From NCBI GenBank assembly GCA_902573725.1, contig CACGLE010000008.1:1-47220 (forward strand): a stretch of DNA of 47,220 bases. Direction: 5' to 3'. Shown here piece by piece: positions 465 to 44,811 of the stretch (positions are counted from its first letter, which is position 1; every line of letters begins with the position of its first letter). This DNA comes from an uncultured SAR116 cluster alpha proteobacterium (lineage in GTDB: Bacteria > Pseudomonadota > Alphaproteobacteria > Puniceispirillales > Puniceispirillaceae). The notes under the pieces are model-generated. The model saw nothing but the letters and a program-made list of their open reading frames with translations, ran no database searches and was not told the DNA's origin. A program made the position numbers and the translations under genes.

Positions 465-467
465 AAA

Positions 468-935: not shown

Positions 936-987
936 TGCTATCTATTATCGTAATGCGGCTAATAAAGAAATAATTAATGCAACAAGC

Positions 988-2475: not shown

Positions 2476-2574
2476 AATTATTAGAATCTACAAATTTAAT
2501 AGCTCATTGAAAATAGATATTAAAAAATAAAATAATATTTTAATTAAATCCAATGTAAGGCCATATTTATTTTT

Positions 2575-2943: not shown

Positions 2944-3017
2944 GATATTCTCCTCTCTTTAGTGCTTCAACCAGGATGGCCGGGGTGCACAAGCTGAAAT
3001 CAAATTAAACCCCTTTT

Positions 3018-3043
3018 TCAAAACGGGGCAGAAGCCCTGCCCC
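3018..3043 (-). terminator. Terminator-like hairpin after the 120-aa gene
   Basis: GGGGCAG (3025-3031) pairs with CTGCCCC (3037-3043) around a 5-base loop. On the minus strand the stem follows the stop of the gene ending at 3059 and leads into GTTTTGAAAAAGG. The T-run is short, so termination may be partial and allow read-through into the two small genes downstream. Confidence 0.6.
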
Positions 3044-3058
3044 ATTCGATTATGCGTA

Positions 3059-3421
3059 TTATTGGATCGAGATGCTTTGCTCCTCTTCTACTTCTTCAAG
3101 GGCATCTAATGGCATTTCTACCTCTCCTATTTTTTTAACCTCATCAGGTAGTTCCACTTCGATGAGAAGTTGATCTTCTTTTTCTACCCATAGTGAGCGA
3201 TACAGAAAGATCATTTCTTTAAAATGGCACACACCATAAGGGATGTATTCAGCTGGTATTTTTTCAACTTCTTCAAAAAGGGCCAATACTAAACCAGATC
3301 TGGATTGACTTGTTTTCAGCACTTTTACTACGGAAGTTGCAAACCATACCTTCACATTTTTACCAAGATAATGCTTCTCAATAATTGGGCATATTTCATC
3401 TGCATTATGAGTGTTAATCAT
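3059..3421 (-). CDS. Conserved-looking protein of unknown function, 120 aa
   Basis: I do not recognise this family. The 120-residue product starts MINTHNADEICPIIEKHYLG, has a mixed alpha/beta-looking body and ends with a strongly acidic C-terminus (LDALEEVEEEQSISIQ). An AGGAG box 6 bases before the ATG supports the start. There is no signal peptide or membrane segment. Upstream it has a 670-bp non-coding stretch and a small inverted repeat at 3462-3478 that could be an operator. Downstream is a terminator-like hairpin. It belongs to the element's minus-strand group but is separated from the replication genes by the presumed origin region. Confidence 0.55.
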   Translation of the reverse strand: MINTHNADEICPIIEKHYLGKNVKVWFATSVVKVLKTSQSRSGLVLALFEEVEKIPAEYIPYGVCHFKEMIFLYRSLWVEKEDQLLIEVELPDEVKKIGEVEMPLDALEEVEEEQSISIQ

Positions 3422-3461
3422 ACTGTTCTCCTTCTAATTTCAATTTCAAATAGCAGACGAA

Positions 3462-3478
3462 CTTCACCTAGCGTGAAG
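3462..3478. promoter_or_regulatory. Inverted repeat upstream of the 120-aa gene, possible operator
   Basis: CTTCAC (3462-3467) and GTGAAG (3473-3478) are a perfect 6-bp inverted repeat with a CTAGC spacer. It lies 41-57 bp upstream of the ATG at 3421, where a repressor would overlap a promoter. The AlpA-like protein of the element is a possible ligand. The site is short and could occur by chance. Confidence 0.3.
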
Positions 3479-3599
3479 AACGACAAAACATATTTTTGAA
3501 ATTTAGAAAAAAAACATTTTCACCTTTAACATAAACCTTCCTCGTTTTAATAAGGAAGACAGACGCACATGGACACAATAATTACATAAATGTCACATG

Positions 3600-3665
3600 C
3601 CTTTTTCAAGGATGCCACCTTGCCGTGTCTAGCAGGTTGGCGGGACGTCAGTCCTCTCTTCATGT
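3600..3665. other. GC-rich island with short hairpins in a non-coding stretch
   Basis: Within the gene-free interval 3422-4091 this stretch is clearly richer in G and C than its flanks. It contains two short stems: CAAGG/CCTTG (3608-3612 and 3619-3623) and GGAC/GTCC around GTCA (3642-3653). Small structured RNAs in AT-rich genomes often stand out this way. A 32-codon frame crosses it without a ribosome site, so I do not call a gene. The rest of 3422-3937 is AT-rich and shows nothing else I can name. Confidence 0.25.
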
Positions 3666-3937
3666 TATCAAATTTACCGGTGTTATAAGTCAAATAGCAC
3701 ACCAAATTCAAGTGGACCAACTAATTTCATATGAGAATTTGGATTCTGAATTAATTTTTCCTCGGTATCTTGGTATAACATAATCAACATTAAAAGGTTA
3801 TAAAAGTTCACTAATATAAAGCACCTTGGAAACAAGTTTTAAACAAATCAATCAAAATTAATTATTAACATCTTAGAAAACACCCACTGTGACTGTCTGT
3901 CAAATTCATTTCAGGACCACTGGTGTTATCCTTTCCT

Positions 3938-4118
3938 GTTCAGCCAGTTCGATGTTCACCCCCCTAAGGGGGGGGATGAACTGAACATTGGTGTTCGTCT
4001 TTTTGTTCGCCCCCGAACACTCGCTCTTTGAGGAAATACAACAAAAAGGGTTTATTATTGTTAAGCCGAACAACTGAATGAACGAATATGTTCAGAAGGG
4101 GATTTCTCCACTGTGAAC
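3938..4118. other. Candidate replication origin: cluster of GTTC/GAAC motifs and a C/G-run hairpin
   Basis: Twelve GTTC or GAAC tetramers fall in 181 bp: 3938, 3947, 3954, 3978, 3983, 3993, 4005, 4015, 4068, 4080, 4090 and 4115. About 1.4 would be expected by chance at even base composition. Three are spaced 9 and 7 bases apart. In the centre GTTCA, six C, TAA, eight G and TGAAC (3954-3981) form a long hairpin, and GTTCG/CGAAC (4005-4018) a second one. The cluster sits at the 3' end of the RepA-like helicase gene. Repeats beside replication genes are typical of origins, but the origin role is inference. Confidence 0.4.
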
Positions 4119-5207
4119 ATCTTCATACCCCTCAGGCATAGCAAACTTTTTTGGCCATAGTTGATGTAGTATATACTCTCCATTCCTATTAGGCACATTG
4201 CTTCTTTTTACCGGCTGGAGAAGATCTTCTGAGCGCAAGGTCTGAATAGCCTTATTTACTGAACCGAGCCCCATTTCTAGGTCTTTTGAAATTTTCCTTT
4301 GCGGCGAGTGTCCGTTTTCTTTTAAGTAGCGAAGAACAACATAATGAGGCTGAAGAAACTCCTCTTCTTCTTCACACAGAAATTCGGTCCCATTTTCTGA
4401 GTCATGACGGAGTACAATCGTTCCAAAATCTGGACGAGGTCGAATACCCCTTACCTTATCAAAAAGAAACTCAAAACGCTGCTCTCCTGGTATAACAAAT
4501 TTTTTTTTGTTTTTTTCAGGTTCCTTTAAATGGATAATAAAATCCATTGGCACTTCAATTATTGAAGCACCCCTTTGCTGTCCACTCTTACCCGCATGGT
4601 GAACAATAACAATTGTATAACCGCGATGACGAAGTGAAACCAGCCAATCTAGCAAAGCCTGTGCCTCACTATTATCATTTTCGTTAATTCCCCTTCTCAA
4701 GGTGGACAAATTATCAAGTACAATTACCTGTGGTCGATGCCCCTTACCTTCCAAGTCTAAAAGTAATTCATCTATTGCCTTTTGCTCTAGCTTATCGTCA
4801 AGGCAAATTGGTTTACCATCCCTATAGAGAGTCTCGGAAGGAAGAAGAAATAGATTGTTTAAAGAACGATTAGCAAGACTCTTGAATCTCTCTTTTATTT
4901 CTGCCAAAGCCATTTCACCATCAACATACAAAACCCCATGCTGACCTGATATTGTCCAGCCCAGAAAATGCTTTGAGCCTTGGGCAATTGCAACAGACAT
5001 AGCCATACAAAACCAACTTTTTCCATGTCCCCTTTGCGCATACACCATTCCAAAACTATCTTTTGGCATCCAAGTTCCAATTAAAAATTCTCGTTTTGGG
5101 ATATCCATTTCAGAGAGTTCATCCATTGTTAAAACATATTTAGATAAGTCTCGGGGCTTCTGTGTCGAATCATTTACAATGGCACGTAACTCTGTCTCAA
5201 CATTCAT
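4092..5207 (-). CDS. RepA-like replicative helicase/ATPase (AAA_25) with C-terminal winged helix
   Basis: The 371-residue protein shows a RecA-fold ATPase: Walker A AQRGHGKSW (K63), Walker B VIVLDNLS (D165), and IVIVHHAGKSG (about 199-209), which is typical of RepA/DnaB-like hexameric helicases of plasmids and satellites. About residues 288-335 (LRYLKENGHSPQRKISKDLE onward) read as a winged helix that may bind origin DNA. It should unwind element DNA for the primase encoded just upstream. The start ATG overlaps the primase stop by one base (TAATG), a sign of translational coupling. The first glycine of the P-loop is Ala, as in several RepA-type ATPases. Confidence 0.8.
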   Translation of the reverse strand: MNVETELRAIVNDSTQKPRDLSKYVLTMDELSEMDIPKREFLIGTWMPKDSFGMVYAQRGHGKSWFCMAMSVAIAQGSKHFLGWTISGQHGVLYVDGEMALAEIKERFKSLANRSLNNLFLLPSETLYRDGKPICLDDKLEQKAIDELLLDLEGKGHRPQVIVLDNLSTLRRGINENDNSEAQALLDWLVSLRHRGYTIVIVHHAGKSGQQRGASIIEVPMDFIIHLKEPEKNKKKFVIPGEQRFEFLFDKVRGIRPRPDFGTIVLRHDSENGTEFLCEEEEEFLQPHYVVLRYLKENGHSPQRKISKDLEMGLGSVNKAIQTLRSEDLLQPVKRSNVPNRNGEYILHQLWPKKFAMPEGYEDVHSGEIPF

Positions 5208-5968
5208 TACACCCCCTCCCTTTTTCGGATAGATTTGAAAACATCCTGGACTTCTCTATACGGCAAAGGGGGATCAAAGCACTTTTTGTTAATATGGAGC
5301 ATCATTTCAAATACAGTTTCAGGAGGATATTTCTTTAATAAAAATCCACACCGGCGAGTAATTTCGGTGTTTCTCGCTCCTTCTGAAACTGGGTTAAGTA
5401 ATTCATGGGCGACAGTAGTTGGGTAATGATGTTGGCGCGATATTTTTACATCAAGCAGTTCCCTCAATTCATGTATCATTGGTCTTTGATTATTTTTGAC
5501 TTTGTCGAGCTTGCATAACCATTCATACTCACCCTTGCTAGAGATACTACCAGCTCCAATAGCATATCCTCCTTGAGATCTTATATCGATCCCTGGGGCC
5601 ACGCGTCCGGCAGATGATTGGAAATATTTATTTCTAGTCGATATGTAGAGATGAAGACCACCAGAAGGAGTTCGAACAGCTGGATATATTGATAACCGTT
5701 GAAGCCCAAGTTTTTCTATAGAGTTAAAACCATTTTTGTTCTCCCCTATATCTATATCAACAACAGTGATACCATTAATTTTTCCCGTTGGAATTCCAAT
5801 CATAGCATTGGGCCATTTTGAAAAAAAATGACCTATGGTATGTAGGTCACTACTGGCATTATCCTGCCAACCTGAAATTAATGGACGTTTATTAATGGGG
5901 TTTGCTGGAAAAATCTTCCACCCCAACTCTTGAGCAAACTGTTCAGCTAATTCAATCGGAGGTTTCAT
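5207..5968 (-). CDS. Prim-pol primase with PriCT-1-like C-terminus
   Basis: The 253-residue product carries the bifunctional primase/polymerase domain in residues about 5-165: VVDIDI gives the metal-binding D71 and D73, PSGGLHLY supplies H106, and GIDIRSQGGYAIGAGS holds D128. Residues about 185-253 (RNTEITRRCGFLLKKY to YREVQDVFKSI) match the PriCT-1 helical domain. The enzyme should make primers for element replication. It is the middle gene of a three-gene module: its start overlaps the end of the AlpA-like gene by 17 bases and its stop overlaps the helicase start. Helicase and primase are separate here, whereas many satellites fuse them. Confidence 0.85.
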   Translation of the reverse strand: MKPPIELAEQFAQELGWKIFPANPINKRPLISGWQDNASSDLHTIGHFFSKWPNAMIGIPTGKINGITVVDIDIGENKNGFNSIEKLGLQRLSIYPAVRTPSGGLHLYISTRNKYFQSSAGRVAPGIDIRSQGGYAIGAGSISSKGEYEWLCKLDKVKNNQRPMIHELRELLDVKISRQHHYPTTVAHELLNPVSEGARNTEITRRCGFLLKKYPPETVFEMMLHINKKCFDPPLPYREVQDVFKSIRKREGV

Positions 5969-6203
5969 TGATTATCTCCTTGAGGTCTCTACCTCTGAAA
6001 TAAAAAAGCACCTCAAGCGCAAAATCACCATGAATGCGTCGGATCCAATCATTTACATCCTCTGCCTCAAAAATTGGTTCTCGGGTGCGAAATGGCACAG
6101 GCCTAGGAAACCCCTCTTTTTTAATCATTCGTTTAATAGCATATTCATCACAATTAAATTCGTCACAAATTTCTGTAAGGGTAACAAGTTTAGAAAAGCT
6201 CAT
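5952..6203 (-). CDS. AlpA/MerR-like DNA-binding regulator or excisionase
   Basis: The 83-residue protein has an N-terminal helix-turn-helix of the AlpA/excisionase type: LVTLTEICDEFNCDEYAIKR, followed by FPRPVPFR and the wing-like PIFEAEDVNDWIRR. Proteins of this kind activate integrase or excision, or act as recombination directionality factors, in prophages and islands. It is the first gene of the primase-helicase module and faces the plus-strand gene at 6456 across a 252-bp divergent promoter region. The C-terminal 25 residues are unlike the usual family and overlap the primase start. Confidence 0.75.
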   Translation of the reverse strand: MSFSKLVTLTEICDEFNCDEYAIKRMIKKEGFPRPVPFRTREPIFEAEDVNDWIRRIHGDFALEVLFYFRGRDLKEIINETSD

Positions 6204-6455
6204 TGCAAATCCTCTCAGCCAAAAGGGCTATAGTTTTTTGGTTAAAAATAAGATCTGCGTCGCTTTTATTGAGCTGTGGCAGCATACGTTCGCCACTACT
6301 GCACGATGTTGGTGAGGTTCGTGTAACCAGTCAAAAATTTTTGCTCTCTCAAGAATACCCCGGTTTTCTGACTTTGTGAACATTTTTGTTAGTGTTTTTT
6401 TCTGCATTGTTTGTTTGCAAATTGAATTACAATGATTCTTGTGGCACCTTAAATC
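6204..6455. promoter_or_regulatory. Divergent control region of the element
   Basis: This 252-bp gap separates the minus-strand replication module from the plus-strand gene at 6456 and must hold both promoters. A TACAAT box at about 6428 with TTGTTT 15 bases before it is a possible but poor plus-strand promoter. I see no clean operator repeat. A 77-codon minus-strand frame crosses the gap, but it has no ribosome site and is probably spurious. Confidence 0.3.
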
Positions 6456-7022
6456 ATGCAAAAGTTTACTGAAGAGAAAGTAGGACGATACGTAATCAAG
6501 GTCGGGAATTTTCCTGATGGATATCGGTTTGCGATAAGTATCAATGGTGGGCTTTTCAAAAGAGGCGTTGAAGACACTAGAGAAAAGGCGTACGAAACTG
6601 CCCGCAATCTAATATCAAATGAGAATAGTGAACGTCTTGCTTCTCGAATTGATGGAGTGCCAACCGCAGAGGAATTTAAAGAAGCATTAAGTCAAGTCAG
6701 GGTTTCAGATTCACAATGGGATATGTTAAAAGCTCATTATAATGCGCAAGGGAAAAAGCTGAGTTCAACACAATTAGCAACAGCAGCTGGTTATGACCAC
6801 CTGTCTGTGGCTAATATGCAATACGGAGCCTTAGGGCATAAGCTGGCTGACGAATTAAACTATCAACCACCTGGAAAATACAAAAACGGAGACCCTCTTT
6901 GGATTACTGTTTTAGTGCATGATTCTGGAATTACATATGAAGAAGATTCGGGACATTTTCAGCATGAATTGAGAGAAGAAGTAGCAAAAGCATTGGAACT
7001 ACTTGGAGAAGTGGGCAGATAA
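6456..7022 (+). CDS. Protein of unknown function next to the attachment end
   Basis: The 188-residue protein has two parts. Residues 1-65 form a short module with VGRYVIKVGNFPDGYRFAIS that I do not recognise. Residues about 82-185 contain QWDMLKAHYNAQGKKLSST, then LATAAGYDHLSVANMQYGAL. They resemble a small domain I recall from bacterial proteins found with HNH or McrA-type nucleases; no HNH residues are present here. No tyrosine-recombinase residues (R, HxxR, Y) are visible, so it is not an integrase despite its place beside the tRNA. It may be a nuclease-associated or regulatory protein. No Shine-Dalgarno box is evident. Confidence 0.6.
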   Translation: MQKFTEEKVGRYVIKVGNFPDGYRFAISINGGLFKRGVEDTREKAYETARNLISNENSERLASRIDGVPTAEEFKEALSQVRVSDSQWDMLKAHYNAQGKKLSSTQLATAAGYDHLSVANMQYGALGHKLADELNYQPPGKYKNGDPLWITVLVHDSGITYEEDSGHFQHELREEVAKALELLGEVGR

Positions 7023-7066
7023 AAACTCAAACATTCACTATCTCAGGATTTAAGTTATATATTGTT

Positions 7067-7085
7067 GGTCACAATCTGGTCACAC
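7067..7085. repeat. Tandem TGGTCACA direct repeats near the attachment end
   Basis: TGGTCACA occurs at 7067-7074 and again at 7078-7085, exactly 11 bases apart, so both copies face the same side of the helix. They lie about 95 bp from the tRNA 3' end. Integrases and directionality factors bind short direct repeats at such distances (arm-type sites). The pair could also be an operator. Confidence 0.4.
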
Positions 7086-7101
7086 CGAATTGACAAAGTG
7101 T

Positions 7102-7176
7102 AGGATTTTATGGGATTCTATAGTCAAAATAAAACTGGATGTGATCAAGCTATGATTTAGGGTTTTATTGGGATTA
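7102..7176. repeat. Imperfect 19-bp direct repeat flanking the attachment end
   Basis: TAGGATTTTATGGGATTCT (7102-7120) resembles TAGGGTTTTATTGGGATTA (7158-7176), differing by a substitution, one inserted base and the end. The second copy ends three bases before the CCA end of tRNA-Phe. Position suggests integrase core or arm sites, though AT-rich sequence makes loose repeats common. Confidence 0.3.
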
Positions 7177-7178
7177 AG

Positions 7179-7254
<76 letters not shown>

Positions 7255-32269: not shown

Positions 32270-33610
32270 TTACACATTTAAAAGCAAATATTCTCTTTCC
32301 CATGGAGAGATAACTTTTAAAAATGCCTCAGCTTCAGCACGTTTAACTTCGTTAAACACAGATATAAAGTCAAGTCCGAGCACTTCTTTAAGTTTTTTAG
32401 CTTTATCTAAACTATCAAGAGCCATATCAAGATTTCGAGGTAACGTGTGCAAATTATCTGACTCCTTTACCATTGGCTTCGCAGGCTCTATCTTTTCTTC
32501 AATACCAAGAAGAATACAAGCAAATGTTAAGGCAATCGATAAATATGGGTTTGTATCTGCACCAGGAATTCTATTCTCGATGCGCCTGCTGCGATAATCA
32601 CCAGCAGGAACCCTCAGTCCCACAGTTCGATTATCAACTCCCCATGCAACATTTGCGGGAGCATCATAAGTCGTAATAAATCTTCTATAACTATTTACAT
32701 AGGGTGCCATTAGCGCCATCCCACCAGCAAGATAGCGCTGCAATCCTCCAAGAGCATGCCGAAACGTTTCTGTATCTTCACCACTCGAATTAGAAAACAT
32801 ATTTTGACCATTTTTTAAGTCACAAATCGAACAATGCAGGTGCATTGATGAGCCAGGTTGGTATTGCATAGGTTTTGCCATAAAGGTTGCATGAATATGA
32901 TGATTTAGTGCTGTCTGTCTTACAGTTCTTTTAAAAATCAATGCTTGATCTGCCAGCGTTAATGCCTCTCCATGATTGAAATTAATTTCCATTTGAGCTG
33001 CCCCACCCTCATGAACAAGTGTATCAATATCAAGCCCCATAGTTTCACAATGATCGTAAACATCTTCGAAAAAAGGATCAAAATCATTGACTGCATCAAT
33101 ACCATAAGCTTGTTTTCCTGTTTCGGCTCTTCCAGACCTACCAGGTGGTGTTTTCAGTGGATGATCGGGATCTGAACTTTGTGATACAAGGAAAAACTCA
33201 AGCTCTGGTGCGACTATCGCAGACAACCCTCTATCATTGAGTGCCCGAATAACACGCTTTAAAACAGCGCGTGGGGCGACCGTGACTTCAGCATTATCTA
33301 AGTAAAAAGCGTCATGGATGATCTGAGCAGTTGGTTCTGAATACCATGGCACTAAATAGGCAGCATTTTCATCAGGTTTTAGAACTACATCACCTACCGC
33401 CGCATTTAATACAACGGAGTCATGATAATCACCTGTTACGGTCTGTCCAAACACATATTCTGGAAGACGAAGGCCGCTTCCTCTCAGAACTTTATTATAT
33501 TTGTCCGCTGGTAGAATCTTACCTCTCGGAATACCGGCTATATCCGGAACTAAACATTCAACTTCTGTAATACTGCGATCCGACAGCCATTTATTTAGTT
33601 TTTGGGTCAT
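32270..33610 (-). CDS. puuA: Glutamine synthetase-like gamma-glutamylputrescine synthetase
   Basis: The 446-residue protein has the class I glutamine-synthetase fold: APELEFFLV, EGGAAQMEINFNHG, GSSMHLHCSI, WGVDNRTVGLRVP and RRIENRIPGADTNPYL. The N-terminal ITEVECLVPDIAGIPRGKIL is typical of the PuuA group rather than GlnA. PuuA joins glutamate to putrescine with ATP. It lies 11 bp after an aminotransferase gene on the same strand and near an oxidase and an agmatinase, which supports a polyamine role. A related amine substrate remains possible. Confidence 0.88.
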   Translation of the reverse strand: MTQKLNKWLSDRSITEVECLVPDIAGIPRGKILPADKYNKVLRGSGLRLPEYVFGQTVTGDYHDSVVLNAAVGDVVLKPDENAAYLVPWYSEPTAQIIHDAFYLDNAEVTVAPRAVLKRVIRALNDRGLSAIVAPELEFFLVSQSSDPDHPLKTPPGRSGRAETGKQAYGIDAVNDFDPFFEDVYDHCETMGLDIDTLVHEGGAAQMEINFNHGEALTLADQALIFKRTVRQTALNHHIHATFMAKPMQYQPGSSMHLHCSICDLKNGQNMFSNSSGEDTETFRHALGGLQRYLAGGMALMAPYVNSYRRFITTYDAPANVAWGVDNRTVGLRVPAGDYRSRRIENRIPGADTNPYLSIALTFACILLGIEEKIEPAKPMVKESDNLHTLPRNLDMALDSLDKAKKLKEVLGLDFISVFNEVKRAEAEAFLKVISPWEREYLLLNV

Positions 33611-33621
33611 AATTTAGGTGC

Positions 33622-34977
33622 TCACTTTTTGAGTTCGGTATATGTGTCATCTAATGCCTGTTTTAATTTTTCAATTGTTATATCAATATCTTCTGTTTTA
33701 AAGCTTAATGGCGGCGATAAAATCATGCCATCACGCACAGCACGCACCATCAAGCCACTTTTAATAGCGTGGTCACGGCACCTCATACCTATCTCGCCAA
33801 TAGGATCAAATAAAACAGGTCCAGACTTATGCTTTACTAGTTCCACGCATGCAAGTAATCCAAAACTGCGTGTTTCTCCTACCAAGGGATGGCTATCTAG
33901 CCTTTTAATTTCTTTTGCGAGATACGGGGCGGTAATGTCCCGAACATGACGAATTAACCCCTCTTCCTCAATCAGCTTAATATTAGCAAGCGCGACAGCA
34001 GCAGAAACAGGGTGCCCTGAATAGGTAAATCCATGAAAAAATTCACCACCTTCATCAATTAAGTAATTAGCAATTTTATCGCTTACCATAACAGCAGACA
34101 TTGGCATATAACCGGAAGTAAGACCCTTTGCCAAAGTTATTAGATCAGGTTTTAAATCCATTGTTTGACTTGCAAACCAATTTCCAGTTCGGCCAAATCC
34201 AGTGATCACCTCATCTACAATAAATAAAATATCAAATTTAGCACAGATTTTCTGGATATGATCAAAATAACCTTTTGGAGGAATAATAACTCCTCCAGCA
34301 CCTTGCACTGGTTCCGCAATAAAGGCTGCAATTTTATTTGCACCTACTTCATGAATTTTTTCTTCTAAATGGCGTGCAGAGCTCTCAGCAAATTGTGCCT
34401 CTGACTGATTTCCTTGGTATAAAAAACCGTAAGGGGGTCTTATATGCTCAAAGTCTGCTTCACTAGCAGATTGCTCGTGCATTGCTTTCATTCCACCCAT
34501 ACTAGCTGCCATGATAGTAGAGCCATGATAGCCATAATCACGTCCAACAATTACCCTTTTTTCAGGATGGCCTTTTAAATTCCAATAATGTCGTACAAGA
34601 CGAATGATAGTATCGTTTGCTTCTGACCCCGAATTTGCATAAATTACGTGATTTAAATGTTTAGGGGAAATCGAAGCAAGTTTTGCTGAAAGCATCGCTA
34701 CTGGCTCATTGCTAGTCTTGAAAAAACTATTATAATACGGCAGTTTTTTCATTTGCGCGGTTGCAGCATTTACTAGCTCTTCTCTGCCATAACCAACATT
34801 TACACACCATAAGCCTGCCATTGCATCCAAAATGGCATTTCCATTATTATCGAATATAACATGGCCTTGCGCATGAGTTATAATACGTGTGCCTTCCTTT
34901 TTTAGAGTTTTAAAATCGGAAAATGGCGGCAAATGATGTTGTTCTTCAAAATGCTGAATATCTTCTTGATTTGACAC
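33622..34977 (-). CDS. Class III aminotransferase, probably putrescine:pyruvate type (SpuC-like)
   Basis: The 451-residue PLP enzyme shows YANSGSEANDTIIRLVRHYW, FIVDEVITGFGRTGNWFASQ with the cofactor-contacting Asp, and LITLAKGLTSGYMPMSAVMV with the Schiff-base lysine. This layout and the N-terminal HLPPFSDFKTLKKEGTRII resemble putrescine- or polyamine-pyruvate aminotransferases (SpuC). It would transaminate putrescine to 4-aminobutanal, parallel to the glutamylation route. It is the first gene of a two-gene unit with puuA and is divergent from the oxidase gene at 35156. Beta-alanine or taurine transaminase is an alternative. Confidence 0.85.
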   Translation of the reverse strand: MSNQEDIQHFEEQHHLPPFSDFKTLKKEGTRIITHAQGHVIFDNNGNAILDAMAGLWCVNVGYGREELVNAATAQMKKLPYYNSFFKTSNEPVAMLSAKLASISPKHLNHVIYANSGSEANDTIIRLVRHYWNLKGHPEKRVIVGRDYGYHGSTIMAASMGGMKAMHEQSASEADFEHIRPPYGFLYQGNQSEAQFAESSARHLEEKIHEVGANKIAAFIAEPVQGAGGVIIPPKGYFDHIQKICAKFDILFIVDEVITGFGRTGNWFASQTMDLKPDLITLAKGLTSGYMPMSAVMVSDKIANYLIDEGGEFFHGFTYSGHPVSAAVALANIKLIEEEGLIRHVRDITAPYLAKEIKRLDSHPLVGETRSFGLLACVELVKHKSGPVLFDPIGEIGMRCRDHAIKSGLMVRAVRDGMILSPPLSFKTEDIDITIEKLKQALDDTYTELKK

Positions 34978-35155
34978 AAGGCACCATCCCTTCCCATAGT
35001 TCTTATTTTACAGCCGATAAAGTCATGCTAACGGCTTTTTATAAAATACTTTTTTTTATTAACACTCACTTTTAATATGTAATTTAAGTATATACTATCT
35101 AACGAAATGCTTTAAAAGAAATTTGAACCCTAACGATGCTAAAAGTTTATCCAAA

Positions 35156-36448
35156 ATGTCAATTAGCCATATTTCTAAATCGATTTATCAGCTAGATATT
35201 TCGCCTCCAAAGTTCCTTGGCCAGCTAAATGAAGATATAAGATGTAGTGTGGCAATTATAGGCGGTGGACTTACTGGAATTTCAACAGCTTTATCTCTTT
35301 GTGAGAAAGGATTTGATGTATGCCTGTTTGAAGCTGGAAATATCGGTGATGGCGGCTCAGGTCGAAATGGAGGCCAAATTTGTCAAGGATGGTCATCAAG
35401 TTTTGAGAAACTCTCAAAATATATAGATCCTGAATTTAAAGAAGATATGTGGCAAGCCGGCCTTGAGGGTTCTAATCTTATAAAAGAGAGAATAAAAAAA
35501 TATAAAATAGAATGCGATGTTCATTGGGGATATGTGCACACAGCGATACACAAAGGTCATATGCAAGAATTAGAGGCCTATCAAAAAAGTTTTGAAGAAC
35601 ATGGATATAATCATCTTCTTGCTTTAAATAATAAATCCTCGTTGTTTAATTATATTTGTTCTGATGCCTATATAGGAGGATTGTACGATGCCGGAAGTGG
35701 GCATCTTCACCCTCTTAAATATCTAATTGGCCTATCAAAAGCAGCGTCGATTGCTGGCGCTAAAATTTATACTAACAGCTCAATTTCCTCGATACAGAAT
35801 GCGAATAACAAAAATAAATTAATCACAAAACAAGGTAATAGTATTATTGCAGAACAGCTCGTTATATGTGGCAATGCTTATCTTGGTGCTGTTTCTCCAA
35901 AGAATATGCGTGGGAGAATAGCACCAGTTACTTCATCGGTTATGGCAACTGAACCTCTTAACAATACAGAAATAAAAAGTGCAATTCCTTCTAGAGCTGC
36001 AATTGCAGATGGGAATACAGCATTAAATTATTTTCGAATTGATAAGCAAAATAGAATGATTTTTGGGGGGCGTGCAAGCTATTTGAACACAGATCCAATA
36101 AATGTTGAGAAAGATTTAAAAAAAAGGATGAGAGCCGTATTTCCAGATTTGATGCATAAGAAAATTCAGCAGGCTTGGTCCGGAAGAATAGGAATTACTG
36201 TTAATCGTCTACCACATTTTGGCAGAATTTCAGATAGTGCGATTTACGTACAAGGATATTCGGGACACGGAGTTGCGTTTTCTGGTGTTGCAGGAAATAT
36301 ACTAAGTGACGCAGTCAGTGGAAAAAAAGATAGATTTAACCAGCTTACTAAAATCCTGCATCTTCCATTTCCTGGAGGTCCGTTGCGGACGCCTATTTTA
36401 GCTCTTGGCATGGGATGGTATAAAATGAGGGATTATTTTCATATTTAA
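35156..36448 (+). CDS. puuB: FAD-dependent amine oxidase, gamma-glutamylputrescine-oxidase-like
   Basis: The DAO-type flavoprotein of 430 residues has the N-terminal dinucleotide site VAIIGGGLTGISTALSLCEK, then GDGGSGRNGGQI, typical of PuuB and related oxidases. Near the C-terminus it has VQGYSGHGVAFSGVAG. PuuB oxidises gamma-glutamylputrescine to the aldehyde. The context of puuA, an agmatinase and a second ligase fits. I chose the ATG at 35156; a TTG at 35123 would add 11 residues, and neither has a clear ribosome site. Its 3' end overlaps the convergent agmatinase gene by 4 bases. Confidence 0.85.
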   Translation: MSISHISKSIYQLDISPPKFLGQLNEDIRCSVAIIGGGLTGISTALSLCEKGFDVCLFEAGNIGDGGSGRNGGQICQGWSSSFEKLSKYIDPEFKEDMWQAGLEGSNLIKERIKKYKIECDVHWGYVHTAIHKGHMQELEAYQKSFEEHGYNHLLALNNKSSLFNYICSDAYIGGLYDAGSGHLHPLKYLIGLSKAASIAGAKIYTNSSISSIQNANNKNKLITKQGNSIIAEQLVICGNAYLGAVSPKNMRGRIAPVTSSVMATEPLNNTEIKSAIPSRAAIADGNTALNYFRIDKQNRMIFGGRASYLNTDPINVEKDLKKRMRAVFPDLMHKKIQQAWSGRIGITVNRLPHFGRISDSAIYVQGYSGHGVAFSGVAGNILSDAVSGKKDRFNQLTKILHLPFPGGPLRTPILALGMGWYKMRDYFHI

Positions 36449-37413
36449 CTCTTTTGAAGTGCTTTTACACAAATCCAGTCATGCAAAATTGTTGCAGCAG
36501 CGATTGAGGTGATTTCTGCATGATCAAATGGAGGACTTACCTCTACAATATCAAATCCTATCATGTTTAATGGCTCGAGACTGCGAAGAATTGATAGTGC
36601 CTGCCAACTAGCTATTCCACCAGAAACAGGAGTTCCTGTGCCAGGGGCAAAAGCAGGGTCTAATACATCTATATCAAAACTCAGATAAACCTTCCTACCT
36701 TTTAGATGATTTAGTATTAACTCAACAACAGCAGGCAAACCAATTTCATGAATTTGAGGTGAAGTTATTTGTTTTATTCCAACATCAAATTCATTATGAG
36801 TTCTGATTCCTACCTGAATAGAACTCTCAACATCGATAAGCCCTTCCTCTATCGCACGAAGAAACATCGTACCATGATCAAGCTCTCCGAATGACTTCCA
36901 TGTATCACAATGCGCATCAAATTGAAGTAATGATAAGGGCCCATATATTTCCGCATGAGCCTTTAATAGAGGATAAGTTACAAAATGGTCACCGCCAATA
37001 GAAAGCAAGGATGCGCCGGAGCTAATGATTGATATTGCTTGTTTATAAATATCCGAGATAATTGTCTCTGGGTTATGAGGGTTAAGCAAAAAATCACCAG
37101 AATCTATAACTTTCAAAATAGCAAAGGGATCAAAACCAAAAGGGAATGACGGCAATTCTGCTAGTTGAACGGAGGCTGCTCTTACAGCTCTTGGCCCTAA
37201 TCTACACCCAGGGCGAAAGGTGGTTGCGTTATCAAACGGTATACCAGTAACAACGATGTCTGCTTCATCAAATGCGACTGAATAAGGACGCCTCAATAGA
37301 CTCATTGCACCAGAATATGTTGGTTCAAAAAATCGCTTATTTAAATCAGAATTGCGCCAAGACTGGTCAGATAATGGTTCAGGTATTGCCTTATTTTTCT
37401 TATAATTAGCCAT
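36445..37413 (-). CDS. speB: Agmatinase (arginase/ureohydrolase family)
   Basis: The 322-residue protein has the manganese-binding motifs of the ureohydrolases: SIGGDHFVTYPLLKA, LLQFDAHCDTW and YLSFDIDVLDPAFAPGTGTP. Agmatinase cleaves agmatine to putrescine and urea, so it would supply the putrescine used by the neighbouring ligase, oxidase and aminotransferase. GGAGA lies 6 bases before the ATG. It follows a glutamine-synthetase-like gene by 13 bp on the same strand. Related guanidinobutyrase or guanidinopropionase activity cannot be excluded. Confidence 0.88.
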   Translation of the reverse strand: MANYKKNKAIPEPLSDQSWRNSDLNKRFFEPTYSGAMSLLRRPYSVAFDEADIVVTGIPFDNATTFRPGCRLGPRAVRAASVQLAELPSFPFGFDPFAILKVIDSGDFLLNPHNPETIISDIYKQAISIISSGASLLSIGGDHFVTYPLLKAHAEIYGPLSLLQFDAHCDTWKSFGELDHGTMFLRAIEEGLIDVESSIQVGIRTHNEFDVGIKQITSPQIHEIGLPAVVELILNHLKGRKVYLSFDIDVLDPAFAPGTGTPVSGGIASWQALSILRSLEPLNMIGFDIVEVSPPFDHAEITSIAAATILHDWICVKALQKS

Positions 37414-37426
37414 AACTTTCTCCTGA

Positions 37427-38686
37427 TTATACTCTCTCTATTTCCTGCTTTTTAGTGGCAATAAACATTTCTCTTAACGTCGGGGGCATCAGTTTTTGAA
37501 TTTTTTCTGATTTCTCAAATAGAGATATAGCCGTGCGCAGATCGTGCGGCAACCTCTTTAAATTAGCCTCATAACCATTACCCAAAACTGGAGATGGTGG
37601 CTCTAACATCTCCTCTAACCCGTTTAATATAGCCGATACCAAAATTGCAAAAAGAAAATATGGATTGCTGTCAGCTCCTGGCACTCTCAACTCTAGTCTT
37701 TTTGCATTACTGGGAGAGTTTGGAATCCTTACAGCCAAGGTTCGATTATCGTACCCCCATCCAATATTTACAGGTGCATGACTATTTTCCTGCAATCTAT
37801 CATAAGAATTTGGAAGTGGTGCCAAAATGGCTGCTGCGGGCTCTAATAAATCCACCACAGAGGCTATGGCTGAATTAAAAACGGCTTTATCTTTTGAAAA
37901 TAAGTTTTCTGACTGTTTGTCTCCCATTGAAATGTGGCAATGCAATCCATTGCCTGACAGGTATTTCTCCGGTTTTGCCCTGAAAGAGACAGACATCCCC
38001 TGGGCTAACGCATATGCAGTCAAACTATGTCTTAAAATAAGGATAGCATCTGCTAAATGACATAGATCCGAACAGGGTGCTAATACAATTTCAATCTGTC
38101 CTATTCCTGCTTCTGATAGGATAGATTCAATCTTAATATCAAGTTGGTCTATAATTCTATTAACATCTTGCAAAAAGTAATCTATTGAATCCAACGCTGA
38201 CAAAGAAAGTAATTGAGGCTTCGAAAAAATAGGTGCTAAATCAACATCTGAGAAAAGGCAAAATTCTAGCTCTATACCAAACCTAAAAATTAACTTTTTC
38301 TCATTCGCCTTATTTAATACAGATTTTAAAAAGGCCCTTGGGCAACCCTCAAATGGCTGACCATTGTTAAGAGTAAAGCTTAACGGCATTAATAAAACAG
38401 GTTTGGTCAAATGATTTAAAAATACTAACGGTGCACCCTGACTAGTTGCTATTCCATCTTTATCCCCGGTTTCGAAAACAAATCTGCTATTGGCTATATC
38501 CTCTCCATTAATATCAATATTTTGAGCCGATAAGGGAATTTGTATCCCCTTATCTATAATTTTTTGATAATCCGACGGGGGTAATCTTTTGCCGCGCATT
38601 ATGCCATTTATATCAAAAATACCCGCCTGAATATGGTCAATTTCAGACATAATTGATTTAGCATTTTTTGGATCATTTTTTATCAT
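37427..38686 (-). CDS. Second glutamine synthetase-like gamma-glutamyl-amine ligase
   Basis: The 419-residue paralogue of PuuA keeps the metal and ATP motifs: FGIELEFCLF, EAGIGQIEIVLAP, GLHCHISM, WGYDNRTLAVRIP and RLELRVPGADSNPYFL. Its N-terminal part (IQAGIFDINGIMRGKRLPP) and overall sequence differ strongly from the ligase at 32270, so it probably handles another amine or amino compound. It is the upstream partner of the agmatinase gene (13-bp gap). An internal ATG at 38650 is an alternative start. Confidence 0.85.
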   Translation of the reverse strand: MIKNDPKNAKSIMSEIDHIQAGIFDINGIMRGKRLPPSDYQKIIDKGIQIPLSAQNIDINGEDIANSRFVFETGDKDGIATSQGAPLVFLNHLTKPVLLMPLSFTLNNGQPFEGCPRAFLKSVLNKANEKKLIFRFGIELEFCLFSDVDLAPIFSKPQLLSLSALDSIDYFLQDVNRIIDQLDIKIESILSEAGIGQIEIVLAPCSDLCHLADAILILRHSLTAYALAQGMSVSFRAKPEKYLSGNGLHCHISMGDKQSENLFSKDKAVFNSAIASVVDLLEPAAAILAPLPNSYDRLQENSHAPVNIGWGYDNRTLAVRIPNSPSNAKRLELRVPGADSNPYFLFAILVSAILNGLEEMLEPPSPVLGNGYEANLKRLPHDLRTAISLFEKSEKIQKLMPPTLREMFIATKKQEIERV

Positions 38687-39783: not shown

Positions 39784-39860
39784 TGGTGACCCCGACAGGA
39801 CTCGAACCTGTTGCCTCGAGATTAGGAATCTCGCGCTCTATCCTGATGAGCTACGGGGCC
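39784..39860 (-). tRNA. tRNA-Arg (CCT)
   Basis: A 77-base cloverleaf starts GGCCCCG and ends CGGGGTC-ACCA, with one G-U pair in the acceptor stem. The anticodon loop TTCCTAA gives CCT, which reads AGG arginine codons. The TpsiC loop GGTTCGAGTCC is standard. It lies between the convergent tupA-like gene and the STT3 gene. Confidence 0.96.
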
Positions 39861-39965
39861 ATATTTATTATTACAAGTCCTCCTAAAGGTAATCGATACC
39901 TATTACCTATAATTTGGTTTAAACAAACTAAAATCACCAAATAAATGCAATATAAAGATTTTTAT

Positions 39966-42068
39966 CTATTTGGATGCAGGCATTAATTTGAATATTCGAA
40001 CATGAGGGTATCCATCATATACTAATTTAAAGATTTCTGGGTCAAATCTTCCCAAATGAAACATCTGATTAAAACTACTAAAAAATAAATCTCTATGGAG
40101 AATAGCTACTCTAGTTGATTTCCTATCTCTATCTCTCATGATTTGAAACATATTTAATTGATTCTGCTGGTAACGCTTACTCCCAATGAGCATTCCTCCA
40201 CGTGTTTCGACCAACAAGTTAAGAACAGGATTTCCATCGATTTTGCCTTCATTAAGATCAAAAATAGAACCGTTACACTTTAAGATCCCTTGGTTTTTTG
40301 TATCTGCACAATTTAAGAAACTATAAGCTAATTGTTGCCCAGGTTTATGACCTTTAGCAGAAATGGGAACACCTAAATCAATGTCCCATCTTCCAATCTT
40401 TGAAATAGACGGAATCCAACTTGTCATTTGGTCTGTGAGCATGAGATATATTGCAGGGGTACTATTCAATCTATCAGAATGGATTTTCTGCTCAAGAGAT
40501 GCTTTATCTTCAATATTTTCTTTCAAACTTGATAGGCCACCACGTGAGAGAAAGCGGAGTGTATCAGCTGAGTGGTTCTGACTATTAGATAACAAAGCAT
40601 CAGCTATAAAATAATTAGAATTACTTAAATGTTGCCCAGGATCTGTAAATGTTGGTATTCCATTCATGAGCATTGAAGCATACCCATAGTCCCACCAGCT
40701 TGCTAAAACACTCTTTTCTTGACCTGCTATAAACTTTAATTCAGCCATTGCTTTAATTATGGGAACAGGAATTGATGGTCTTGCTAACTGATTAACAGGG
40801 CCCTGGATCCAAACAAAAACTAATAAAATAAAACAGGCAACCGAAGATGCTAAGGTACTTACTATTTTTCTTGAGTCTTCAAACCTAGATAAAAATAAAA
40901 AGGCTATAGATTTTGTAGCCAATACAACAATATAAGCACCTCCAAACCAGAAAAAAGGAGCCGAATAAAACAATGCGCGGTTTCCCAATACCAAGGAAAG
41001 CATAGCAAATCCTGCAAGTGGCCCATAGGCAATCGCCAATATTGGATGTCTGATAGCCCAAAAAATCATACCAAATAAGCAAAAGATGCCTATATATACA
41101 GATCCTGTCATTCTATGTAATATTTCATAAAATGAAACTTTCGAGGCTTCAGTAACTGTAGATATCACATTATTAAATATAAATTGATTAAAGCCAAAAT
41201 CTGCTTGAGTATAAACTGTAGTGAATGGATTTATCAGACCAACACCTGATAAAAGGATAAACACCGTTGAAAATCCAATTATTCTTCGCCAGTCCCTAGT
41301 AACAATGATAAGTAGCCAGCATAAAGCAATTAATGCCATTATTATCAGTTCTGATTTACTATACCATACCATAAATACCCTTGCTGATAAGGCAGCTAAA
41401 ATCGTGAAGAAAAGACCCCACTTTAGTTGTTTTGCTCTTCCGGCACACAAAACCATTGCAAACATAAAATACATTAATCCAAGGTTTAGCTGGTCAGTAT
41501 CTATTCTGCCAATAGTTGAGCGCCAATAATATGCTAAAGATAAACCACCTCCAGCAGCTGCGACTGACCCTTCCATCCAATATCCTGTCGCGCCAAATGC
41601 AATAAAAATAGCAATCGCCGTTATAGCTGCAGTATAGGGAATCATTTTATTACCCGCGGTTAACAATGCTTGAGGTGATGAATCTTTGGCAAAATAAGCT
41701 ATGAGTCTTGACAATAATGGAGCTATTCGTTTGGGCAAATCTGTTTGTTGCACCGTTGCTTGATTGTGAGGAAATGTGCGAAGAGAACTATAATCATCCA
41801 TAGTTCTTCCAGATTTAATGTAGCCTGCTATACCTAAAAAATAACCTGCATCCATTGTGGTGAATAAGGGCGTATCCTCATAAAAAAATTCTTCTTTGTT
41901 TTGTTCCCACAATTGCCAATTCGTTTGCCTAACTTGAAAATTCATTTGGATAGCTATAGCACCCAAAATAATAGCCAAGACAACAGCTAGTAAAGTGGTT
42001 TTTGGATGAAATATGCCATTTTGGAACAATTTTTCATGCCACTTAACAATTGTAGATATAAACGACAT
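39966..42068 (-). CDS. STT3/PglB-type oligosaccharyltransferase
   Basis: The 700-residue protein has about 12 membrane segments and a C-terminal periplasmic domain (from about residue 430). The STT3 hallmarks are present. An acidic site in TTMDAGYFLGI (D73) and the second DxD-like GRIDTDQLN (D190, D192) are followed by VISTVTEAS with the EL5 glutamate (E307), RALFYSAPFFWFGGAYI and SWWDYGYASML with the acceptor-binding WWDYG (about 458-462). Enzymes of this family move lipid-linked glycan onto asparagine in N-x-S/T. Such single-subunit enzymes are best known from Campylobacter and archaea, so one in an alphaproteobacterium is notable. No pgl locus adjoins. Confidence 0.88.
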   Translation of the reverse strand: MSFISTIVKWHEKLFQNGIFHPKTTLLAVVLAIILGAIAIQMNFQVRQTNWQLWEQNKEEFFYEDTPLFTTMDAGYFLGIAGYIKSGRTMDDYSSLRTFPHNQATVQQTDLPKRIAPLLSRLIAYFAKDSSPQALLTAGNKMIPYTAAITAIAIFIAFGATGYWMEGSVAAAGGGLSLAYYWRSTIGRIDTDQLNLGLMYFMFAMVLCAGRAKQLKWGLFFTILAALSARVFMVWYSKSELIIMALIALCWLLIIVTRDWRRIIGFSTVFILLSGVGLINPFTTVYTQADFGFNQFIFNNVISTVTEASKVSFYEILHRMTGSVYIGIFCLFGMIFWAIRHPILAIAYGPLAGFAMLSLVLGNRALFYSAPFFWFGGAYIVVLATKSIAFLFLSRFEDSRKIVSTLASSVACFILLVFVWIQGPVNQLARPSIPVPIIKAMAELKFIAGQEKSVLASWWDYGYASMLMNGIPTFTDPGQHLSNSNYFIADALLSNSQNHSADTLRFLSRGGLSSLKENIEDKASLEQKIHSDRLNSTPAIYLMLTDQMTSWIPSISKIGRWDIDLGVPISAKGHKPGQQLAYSFLNCADTKNQGILKCNGSIFDLNEGKIDGNPVLNLLVETRGGMLIGSKRYQQNQLNMFQIMRDRDRKSTRVAILHRDLFFSSFNQMFHLGRFDPEIFKLVYDGYPHVRIFKLMPASK

Positions 42069-42234
42069 AAATACTCCTGTTTATCATGTTTGCTTAAAAT
42101 TCTTAGCGAAGTTATAAGTTAACACTATCTTATTAACAACAAGAGAGAAATATCTCATAAAAAAACAATTTTTACCTAGTCAAATATTTTTAATAATATT
42201 ATTATTGAATTTGATAATTTATAGAGACAAAATT

Positions 42235-42822
42235 ATGACTGAACAGGAACAAATATTTAAAAACTTAAAATCTTTAAGAAAAATTGCCTCAATTGAAGCT
42301 TTGGTTTCAGATGCAACAAACATTACCCAAGATGCATACAAAAATCAAAACAATGATTTGTTGTCTCAAACAAAAACCTCAGATGATTTTGAAATAAACA
42401 TAGCGGTGACGAGCCAAATTAATAAGCTCAGGTTACACCTTAAAGATGCTGAAATCGCATATTTAAAAGAAAAAATAGATGGTAAAAGCGACATAATTTC
42501 CAAATTTGACAAAACAGAGCCAGCAAAAGTAAATACCTTATTAAGTGATATTAGATTAGCTATTTCCAATGCAAAAGAAGATATATCGAAAAATGACTCA
42601 AAGAAAATAAAAACTTTCTCTGCTCCTCAAAATAATGAGAACGTTAATTCTGAATTTGTTTTATCATCTGAAACAAAACAATTTATTAAACTTCTTTTGA
42701 ACCAAGTTGTCTCACAAAATTTAGATAATGTTATACAAGAAATAATAGGGCATAAAATAGAGCGAAAAAATAAAGTTCTTGATCTAAGTGAAGTGGCAGT
42801 AAGTCCGAAAAATGATACTTAA
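42235..42822 (+). CDS. Charged helical protein of unknown function
   Basis: I do not recognise this protein. From the ATG at 42235 it has 195 residues, is rich in Lys, Asn, Asp and Ser, and is predicted mainly helical. No signal or membrane segment is seen. A conserved-looking C-terminal segment (FIKLLLNQVVSQNLDNVIQE, about 150-170) faintly recalls the C-terminal helices of PopZ, but the PopZ N-terminus and tryptophan are missing. A TTG at 42205 would add ten residues of weak character. It is divergent from STT3 and upstream of the EamA transporter by 54 bp. Confidence 0.55.
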   Translation: MTEQEQIFKNLKSLRKIASIEALVSDATNITQDAYKNQNNDLLSQTKTSDDFEINIAVTSQINKLRLHLKDAEIAYLKEKIDGKSDIISKFDKTEPAKVNTLLSDIRLAISNAKEDISKNDSKKIKTFSAPQNNENVNSEFVLSSETKQFIKLLLNQVVSQNLDNVIQEIIGHKIERKNKVLDLSEVAVSPKNDT

Positions 42823-42876: not shown

Positions 42877-43782
42877 ATGGAATTATGGGCCGTCATAGCA
42901 ATAATCGCAGCAATTGCGCAATCGTTGCGAACTGTGTGTCAGAAATTATTGATCCCTCATGTAGGTGAGTTGGGTGCAAGTTTTAGCCGCTTCATCTACG
43001 GTATTACCTTTACTTGGCTCTGGGTCTTCACAATTTGCTTAATGACTGGCAATAGTTTGCCAACTATATCATTTTTATTTATTATTTTTGTTGGGCTAGC
43101 TGGAATTCTTCAAATAGTATTTACGATTTTGTTGATCATGATGTTCAATCATCGAAACTACGCCATTGGTATTGCTCTTTCAAAAACAGAAATTCTTCAG
43201 ACTGCTATATTAGAAGCTATAATAATTGGGTATACTGCAAGCTTTTCGATTATAGGAGCGATTTCAATGGGACTAATTGGTATTGCTCTTTTAAGCTATC
43301 AAAAAGTTGAGTTTAAAAATGGTGTTAAAAGTCATTTATTCTTTTCTCCCCCCCATTTCTTGGGCATCGGCGCTGGAGCCGCTCTTGCGTTGGCCAATAT
43401 TTTTTATTTTAAAGCAACAATACTTTTAAATAGTGATTTACTTGTTATTAATGCTAGTTTTACAGCGGCAATATCAATTTCACTGCAAACAATCATTCTT
43501 GGAAGCTACCTTGTTTTTAAGGAACCAGATCAATTAATGCTTTGCCTAGCGAATTGGAAAATTGGTTTTTTTATTGGCATTACTGCAGTTATTTCCTCTA
43601 CAGCATGGTTTTACGCATTTGCAATGTTTCACCTTGGGGCAGTGCGTGCAGTAGGACAAATAGAGTTGATTATATCGATTTTGTTTTCGTGGCTTTTTTT
43701 AAAAGAAAAAATTACTCTTCTTGAGTTAATTGGTATTAGCATCCTTGGTATTTCAATTGTTATTGTACTGTTATATGCTTAA
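42877..43782 (+). CDS. EamA/DMT family transporter
   Basis: The 301-residue protein has ten hydrophobic segments in two EamA-like repeats (about residues 1-140 and 150-301). The first contains IAQSLRTVCQKLLIPHVGE and the second a SLQTIILGSYLVFKEPDQL loop. The closing SWLFLKEKITLLELIGISIL is the usual end of the fold. DMT proteins export metabolites or sugars; some relatives move lipid-linked sugars. Its place between an unknown gene and a glycosyltransferase (12-bp gap) invites a role in glycan traffic, which is inference only. Confidence 0.85.
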   Translation: MELWAVIAIIAAIAQSLRTVCQKLLIPHVGELGASFSRFIYGITFTWLWVFTICLMTGNSLPTISFLFIIFVGLAGILQIVFTILLIMMFNHRNYAIGIALSKTEILQTAILEAIIIGYTASFSIIGAISMGLIGIALLSYQKVEFKNGVKSHLFFSPPHFLGIGAGAALALANIFYFKATILLNSDLLVINASFTAAISISLQTIILGSYLVFKEPDQLMLCLANWKIGFFIGITAVISSTAWFYAFAMFHLGAVRAVGQIELIISILFSWLFLKEKITLLELIGISILGISIVIVLLYA

Positions 43783-43794: not shown

Positions 43795-44811
43795 ATGCTT
43801 ATGAAAATTCTCCATGTTACAAGTGATAACAAGCCAGGTGGAATTCAAAAAGCCTTTAAAAGCTATGTTGCCGCTCTAGCACCCCTTTCTGAATTTGAAA
43901 ATTTTTACTTTACCCCTAATTATTTATATGCAAACAACGGTGGCGATAATACGAATCATATAAGATTGTCATGGCTTCAAAAAACCCTTATCCGAAGGAA
44001 CTTATTGTTTTCTGTCAATAATTTTCATAATCAATTATTTAACATTTCTTTTGTTCATAATGGCTTCATGTGCAGAAGTATAAAAAAATACTGTGATAAT
44101 GTGATTGGTATTTGTCACAACGACAAACCAGAGCAATTTGATTATGCAGACAATTTAATTTGTCTTACACCAAATGCGGTTCAAAAAGCGAAAGAAATTG
44201 GTAGATGTGAAAATAGTATTCATCTGTTATCTCATTATTTTGAACCTCAAAAAAAAATTACTCATAGGGCTAAGATAGATGAAAAGCTTACCATAGGAGC
44301 TGCAGGAAGGTTTGTCGAAAAAAAAGGCTTCAAAACATTCATTGATGCTGCCGCAAGAGTTCGCAAAGAATTCCCCGAAGTTGAATTTGTACTTGCTGGT
44401 GATGGACCGTTATCAAAAAGTCTCCTGGCATTATCAAAAAGCAAAGGCAATCCAGTCCGATTTACAGGTTGGATTGACATTAAAGAATTTGCCCCCTCAT
44501 TAGATATTTTCTGCCTTCCCTCTCTTGATGAGCCATTTGGCTATATACTGCCTGAAATTATGCAATATGGTGTTGCCATTGTAGCAACACGTACAAATGG
44601 CCCTTTGTGGATTTGTCAAAGTGCTGAAGATGCACTTTTTTTTGAACCATCTAATAGCGACGAGATGGTGGACCGTCTGAAAATACTTATACAAAACCCG
44701 AAGGAAAGGAATAAATATCAGCAAAGAGCCAAGAAAGCTGCGTGTGATGAACGATTTTCAAAAGAAATTTTTACGGAAAATTTGCTAAATATCATTAAAG
44801 TAGTTAATTAG
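43795..44811 (+). CDS. GT4-type glycosyltransferase
   Basis: The 338-residue GT-B enzyme starts with KILHVTSDNKPGGIQKAF, a short N-terminal donor-side motif, and has the C-terminal GT1/GT4 domain: IGAAGRFVEKKGFKTFIDAA, VEFVLAGDGPLSKSLL and LPSLDEPFGYILPEIMQYG with the ExF/E dyad that binds nucleotide sugar. Donor and acceptor are unknown; LPS, exopolysaccharide or N-glycan assembly are all possible. It follows the EamA gene by 12 bp. The start could also be the ATG at 43801. Confidence 0.88.
   Translation: MLMKILHVTSDNKPGGIQKAFKSYVAALAPLSEFENFYFTPNYLYANNGGDNTNHIRLSWLQKTLIRRNLLFSVNNFHNQLFNISFVHNGFMCRSIKKYCDNVIGICHNDKPEQFDYADNLICLTPNAVQKAKEIGRCENSIHLLSHYFEPQKKITHRAKIDEKLTIGAAGRFVEKKGFKTFIDAAARVRKEFPEVEFVLAGDGPLSKSLLALSKSKGNPVRFTGWIDIKEFAPSLDIFCLPSLDEPFGYILPEIMQYGVAIVATRTNGPLWICQSAEDALFFEPSNSDEMVDRLKILIQNPKERNKYQQRAKKAACDERFSKEIFTENLLNIIKVVN

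Follow-up and report, generated by a model that had tools for sequence, protein, structure and literature searches.

A gene for a single-subunit STT3/PglB-type oligosaccharyltransferase (OST) is present in the genome of an uncultured SAR116-cluster alphaproteobacterium, where it probably encodes a working N-linked enzyme that looks ancestral in SAR116, whose alleles appear to be exchanged by recombination and whose donor glycans seem to be variable. The gene lies within the 47,220-nucleotide stretch of DNA analysed here (the window), and what is new about it is that it stands apart from a pgl locus, seems to be ancestral and varies in its alleles. The comparisons set out below establish the gene, its predicted fold, the conservation of its residues, its distribution, the donor-type genes, the divergence and mosaicism of its alleles and the purifying selection on it; from them we infer its enzymatic activity, the N-linkage, the identity of the donor, the acceptor rule and, if there is one, a selective reason for the diversity of alleles. 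The range of PglB-type OSTs whose active sites are complete is in this way extended to an order of surface-ocean alphaproteobacteria, and N-glycosylation in this order becomes directly testable.

A divergent member of the STT3/PglB superfamily

The preliminary description of this DNA had recognised an STT3/PglB-type OST in an alphaproteobacterial host, and both assignments have been borne out. The nearest named relatives of the window are SAR116-cluster alphaproteobacteria, and the protein combines a Pfam core-domain match, a match to the PglB of Campylobacter lari and a PglB fold over nearly its full length.

39966..42068 (-): STT3/PglB-type oligosaccharyltransferase, 700 aa (PF21436, phmmer against the PDB, AlphaFold2 model, VIA Z against C. 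lari PglB)

The reading frame is intact, with an ATG start and 700 codons. It scores 47.1 bits with the Pfam model STT3-PglB_core, PF21436 (cut-off 23, E 4e-12), and matches the C. lari PglB entries 6gxc/5ogl at E ~4e-13 in a phmmer search of the PDB, whilst with a profile built on 23 SAR116 STT3 proteins the match to C. lari PglB improves to E 6e-43, that to human STT3B being only E 2e-5. Chance is excluded as the source of the assignment. PF02516, the Pfam model for the N-terminal part of STT3, remained below threshold, a limit of the reach of that profile; in the structural model the N-terminal part nevertheless has the PglB fold. With the NCBIfam PglB equivalog NF050801 the protein scores 86.8 bits (E 1e-24) against a cut-off of 1300, so that it is not filed as an equivalog of the Campylobacter PglB.

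The AlphaFold2 model (pLDDT 87.3, pTM 0.84) has three PglB entries as its top matches among solved structures (Foldseek E 4e-25), and its superposition on PglB 5ogl gave a VIA Z of 34.1 with an rmsd of 3.8 over 627 aligned residues, at a sequence identity of ~17-19% to C. lari PglB. The yeast, human and archaeal OSTs come next (Z 21-26), and other GT-C enzymes (PMT, ArnT and arabinosyltransferases) rank far below PglB in both profile and fold matches. Membership in an unrelated GT-C branch, named earlier as the result that would speak against the assignment, was not what emerged, PglB being the closest profile and the closest fold. The SAR116 STT3 thus belongs, as a divergent form, to the STT3/PglB superfamily (CAZy GT66), with a GT-C membrane domain and a periplasmic OST core domain (PF21436; model residues 16-696), the acidic motifs of EL1 (Asp, D73) and EL2 (DxD, D190 and D192), a TIxE-type glutamate in EL5 (E307, in TVTE/TITE) and a WWDxG motif (WWDYGY, 458-463). 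The panel of tested OSTs covers epsilonproteobacteria, deltaproteobacteria and Aquificae (PMC4894442), and the SAR116 enzyme, which looks catalytically complete as judged from its sequence, falls outside these groups. No report on a SAR116 or Puniceispirillum OST or glycosylation, or on an alphaproteobacterial STT3, was found in the open literature, subscription papers lying mostly outside the search.

Active-site residues and comparison with known enzymes

In tested enzymes the WWDYG motif, the EL5 glutamate, both acidic motifs and the MI-like segment serve transfer to the asparagine of a sequon. Residue conservation was followed in 23 SAR116 STT3 homologues with 25-77% identity.

41850..41852 (-): codon of D73, catalytic/metal Asp of EL1, equivalent to C. 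lari D56 (invariant in 23; alignment with C. lari)
41520..41522 (-): codon of R183, equivalent to C. lari R147 (invariant)
41493..41501 (-): codons of DTD 190-192, the EL2 DxD motif (invariant; aligned with C. lari DTD)
41148..41150 (-): codon of E307, glutamate of the EL5 TxxE, equivalent to C. lari E319 (invariant)
41112..41114 (-): codon of R319, equivalent to C. lari R331 (alignment with C. lari, SAR116 comparison)
40977..40979 (-): codon of R364, equivalent to C. lari R375 (invariant)
40680..40697 (-): codons of WWDYGY 458-463, WWDxG pocket for the acceptor Ser/Thr (invariant in 23)
40404..40427 (-): M548-I555, MI-like segment of bacterial OSTs (conservation in 23)
40275..40310 (-): cysteine pair C587 and C598 (conserved in 23/23 SAR116 homologues; C. 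lari has no cysteines at the corresponding sites)

The three acidic sites, the EL5 glutamate and the WWDYG motif, earlier described as all in place, are indeed so, and D73, R183, D190/D192, E307, R364 and WWDYGY 458-463 are invariant in 23/23 SAR116 homologues. Within the MI-like segment, a candidate for the MxxI motif of the core domain in bacterial OSTs, W551 is invariant and M548 and I555 nearly so, with a tentative register to M568/I572 of C. lari. The pair C587-C598 could form a periplasmic disulfide special to the SAR116 clade. R319 is kept in the genus of the window, not across all SAR116; its C. lari counterpart, R331, has been implicated in the recognition of the acidic residue at position -2 of the acceptor, though not as its sole determinant (PMC4894442). 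The analysis thereby adds ~30 divergent OSTs to those available, and these vary naturally at a residue tied to the -2 acceptor preference, which should be useful for glycoengineering.

Among known systems, C. lari PglB (5ogl, 6gxc, 3rce; GT66) shares with the SAR116 STT3 the near-whole fold, the acidic residues of EL1, EL2 and EL5, WWDYG, a putative MI-like segment and, in the genus of the window, the R331 equivalent, whereas the cysteine pair C587/C598, the low identity, the absence of a pgl locus and the allelic hotspot set the SAR116 protein apart. The PglBs of Desulfovibrio (D. desulfuricans, D. gigas and D. vulgaris), active though they are only 15-20% identical to C. jejuni PglB (PMC4894442), resemble it, by their published description, as divergent single-subunit OSTs in which the R331 position is variable. 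Archaeal AglB and eukaryotic STT3 have the same OST fold, WWDYG and acidic motifs (Z 21-26), but match more weakly in sequence and fold and differ in lipid carrier and partner subunits.

Glycan donor genes and the proposed reaction

The surroundings of the gene contain the following features.

39784..39860 (-): tRNA-Arg(CCT), lying ~100 bases downstream of the STT3 gene and close to the left end of the divergent segment (ARAGORN, identity profile)
42205..42822 (+): 205-aa ORF, divergently transcribed from STT3, family unassigned (conserved synteny)
42877..43782 (+): EamA/DMT-family transporter (Pfam PF00892; syntenic in the genus)
43795..44811 (+): glycosyltransferase of family GT4, immediately after the EamA gene (PF00534; weakly similar to PglH at 42 bits)

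The 205-aa ORF has no Pfam or NCBIfam match. The only glycan-related hints near STT3 are the EamA transporter and the GT4 gene, the latter a possible glycan-assembly gene, and a locus of the Campylobacter type, with the OST clustered with the donor genes, was not found here. The preliminary description had considered the enzyme to be without a pgl cluster, which holds for the vicinity of STT3 but not for the genome, as a set of PglC-, PglD-, PglE-, PglF- and GT4-like genes is found near mnmA on another contig (G000:C1, ~73.8-81.3 kb; L097:1786-9256). The order of this set is GT4, a PglC-like gene overlapping one for a PglD-type acetyltransferase, and then a PglE-like aminotransferase, with an EamA gene and a PglF-like membrane dehydratase divergently placed. 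The best PDB match of the PglC-like protein is an N,N'-diacetylbacillosaminyl-1-phosphate transferase (E 9e-65), the acetyltransferase scores 179.7 bits with TIGR03570 (NeuD/PglB/VioB; cut-off 160.8) and has sugar acetyltransferases as PDB matches, and the aminotransferase matches 1o61/4ztc, which we take to be C. jejuni PglE, at E 5e-92. The genes of a diNAcBac donor pathway (PglF/E/D/C) thus occur together on this contig, as in the Campylobacter pgl pathway (PglF, E, D, C, A), and the sugar would presumably be of the bacillosamine type. In contrast with that pathway, STT3 lies outside the set, the PglF-like gene is divergently placed and the set is missing in most genomes of the genus. Gene kinds of the PglF/E/D/C series serve O-antigen and O-glycan synthesis as well, and for this reason the set is evidence for the donor side but not proof of it.

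The pgl-like set was found in the genome of the window, which is 64% complete, and in part in G001; no close PglF came to light in G002-G004, G006, G008 and G009, and most close STT3 carriers among the sampled genomes of the genus lack the set and have WecA-type starters. The glycan therefore probably differs between close relatives, and, STT3 being also unlinked to the set, donor and OST are not strictly coupled. Other SAR116 genomes carry a UDP-sugar epimerase, a WecA-like starter or a Wzy_C protein next to or near STT3, and a PglK-like ABC flippase in the glycan cluster of one relative scores 352 bits with NF050066, under its cut-off of 1000. PglC- and WecA-type starters both yield a reducing-end HexNAc, which suits PglB-type enzymes. 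Such a reducing end suits C. jejuni PglB in particular (PMC7725333). By hand count in 61 genomes the starter phosphoglycosyltransferase does not track STT3, being present in 26/32 genomes with it and in 22/29 without. A coupling hinted at in the first 32 genomes (17/18 vs 9/14) was gone in the full 61, and Wzx (PF01943) was discarded as a marker, occurring in only 8/32 genomes whether STT3 was present or not.

In the reaction that we propose, the single-subunit STT3 of the inner membrane would take a HexNAc-initiated glycan from undecaprenyl diphosphate at the periplasmic face. D73, D190, D192 and E307 would coordinate a divalent metal and activate the amide, the WWDYG pocket would hold the Ser/Thr of an extended N-X-S/T sequon, and the glycan would be moved onto the asparagine of exported proteins. 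In the genome of the window the PglF/E/D-like enzymes would make a bacillosamine-type sugar, on which the PglC-like phosphoglycosyltransferase would start the donor; relatives would start it with WecA-type enzymes instead.

A protein with the fold and residues of an OST may nonetheless have taken up another job, be it O-linked transfer, a lipid or polymer acceptor or an unusual donor, and some of the data would agree with this: an identity to tested PglBs of only ~17-19%, the uncoupling of STT3 presence from starter enzymes, and the Wzy_C ligase-like genes near STT3 in some relatives. We regard such a job as unlikely, as the protein retains WWDYG, the EL5 glutamate, both acidic motifs and an apparent MI-like segment, and its fold match to PglB is well over those to PMT, ArnT and arabinosyltransferases.

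An allele hotspot confined to STT3

Over the 34, 33 and 22 kb outside STT3 that align with the genomes G009, G004 and G008, the identity of the window to them is 93.7%, 94.8% and 97.0%, respectively, whereas the nucleotide identity of STT3 itself falls to 79.3%, 75.3% and 82.0%. The shift coincides with the edges of the gene, the hotspot segment spanning 39784-42300. In the three pairings of the window, G009 and G004, synonymous divergence of STT3 reaches 0.52-0.57, against medians of 0.15-0.16 for the flanking genes (13-17) and 0.31 for the highest other gene; in the adjoining 205-aa ORF divergence is mildly raised (pS 0.21-0.31). Within the genus the dN/dS of STT3 is 0.10-0.18, indicative of purifying selection, and because synonymous sites share in the rise, selection on amino acids alone cannot explain the divergence. 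Moreover, the gene is an intragenic mosaic, in which nucleotides 1-315 join G009 and G004, ~1156-1365 the window and G009, and 1891-1995 the window and G004; in a runs test on these pairing blocks, 0/2000 shuffles were as low. At the protein level G004 is 71% identical to the window allele, and other species of the genus 72-73%; for the neighbouring EamA protein the values are 98% for G004 and 75-79% for the other species. Variation is greatest in EL1, around EL5 and at residues 521-540, with the catalytic blocks nearly constant, and the changes are not concentrated in one domain, affecting 37% of the residues of the membrane part and 36% of those of the periplasmic domain.

Exchange of old STT3 alleles by homologous recombination within the species complex of the window fits all of these observations. 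A mutational hotspot or an assembly artefact could also be put forward, given that contigs of related genomes break here (those of G006 and G005 end at or just before STT3 and that of G008 inside it), a sign of difficult assembly that probably makes some apparent absences of STT3 mere breaks at a polymorphic gene. Such an origin of the excess divergence is improbable, though: the excess is seen in all three pairings with the gene intact and flanks at 92-97%, the reading frame is open and under purifying selection, the blocks of the three pairings alternate within the gene, and close genomes differ in it as much as do different species of the genus. In pairs from other SAR116 genera no excess was seen, so that the hotspot is documented for the genus of the window alone.

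Bacterial N-glycosylation is not usually viewed as a variable surface trait. Tentatively, and with the odds rather against it, it might be one in SAR116, with one OST gene retained and its alleles swapped between lineages at a fixed site, donor clusters exchanged elsewhere, and the choice of acceptor or glycan varying between near-clonal cells, perhaps under pressure from phages or grazers; that such pressure on surface glycoproteins drives the variability of STT3 is a guess. If the hotspot is selected, protein N-glycosylation would, much like the O-antigen loci, count among the surface traits that vary. A comparable polymorphic OST was not found in the literature searched.

Distribution and probable ancestry in SAR116

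STT3 is present in 32/61 related genomes, which represent 14/17 sampled genera of the order, and no strong match outside SAR116 was found among 386 alphaproteobacterial genomes sampled. The phylogeny with other forms suggested in the preliminary description recovered the SAR116 proteins as one clade with 100/100 support that broadly tracks family boundaries, but left their exact branching relative to PglB without significance: the sister position to Campylobacter PglB (84/69) obtained an AU p of 0.29 when SAR116 was tested as closer to PglB than to Firmicutes/archaea, in a tree where PglB is represented by a single, long-branched sequence. A query with C. lari PglB gave no match in plasmids or viral contigs, and for this reason the tree has no further Campylobacterota or Desulfobacterota sequences. 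In deep lineages belonging to more than one family STT3 lies directly behind ispE (order ETF-QO, TPR protein, ispE, STT3), and in the genus of the window and its neighbours it is sited elsewhere. The presence in 14/17 genera, the single clade and the ispE-adjoining site together suggest that the common ancestor of the SAR116 families sampled probably already had STT3, with moves and losses later; its ancient transfer into that ancestor is possible. That one lineage recently gained a pglB of Campylobacterota type by horizontal transfer, with an element at the tRNA-Arg ~100 bases downstream as its carrier, is very improbable despite the rarity of OSTs in alphaproteobacteria, in view of this breadth and conserved site, the ~17-19% identity to C. 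lari PglB and the absence of STT3 from phage and plasmid records, with no copy confirmed in viral contigs. On the same records a mobile or phage origin of the gene was rejected.

Several distant proteins were met in these surveys. One alphaproteobacterium outside SAR116 has a weak STT3 relative with WWDVG (L078:94-2595; PF02516 41 bits), and distant WWDxG proteins occur in 4 others among 397 genomes of the phylum (Pseudomonadota). The STT3-like proteins of other Pseudomonadota at L080-L083 share DTD with the SAR116 enzyme and exceed the cut-off of the STT3 N-terminal model in 4/4 cases and of the core model in 3/4, but form a separate clade in which WWDNG, WWDAG, WWDFG and WWDIG replace WWDYG, and their acceptor pocket may differ. 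WWDYG STT3 of Lachnospiraceae and related Firmicutes (L033-L044, L047) grouped with sequences of Methanobacteriaceae, which hints at exchange with gut archaea. In several SAR116 genomes, TPR-sulfotransferase fusion genes that vary strongly among genomes lie near the ispE-STT3 site (L060:7234-9039, L061-L064).

Other features of the window

Positions 1-7254 hold primase-like, AAA/RepA-like and other small ORFs ending at a tRNA-Phe (7179-7254), and this region resembles an integrated element. What follows the tRNA-Phe junction in G009 is instead a glycan cluster that includes a Wzx flippase (L095:10517-16982). Further along the window, at 32270-38686, an aminotransferase gene is clustered with two genes resembling glutamine synthetase, one resembling an FAD oxidoreductase and one resembling agmatinase, a composition like that of clusters for polyamine use.
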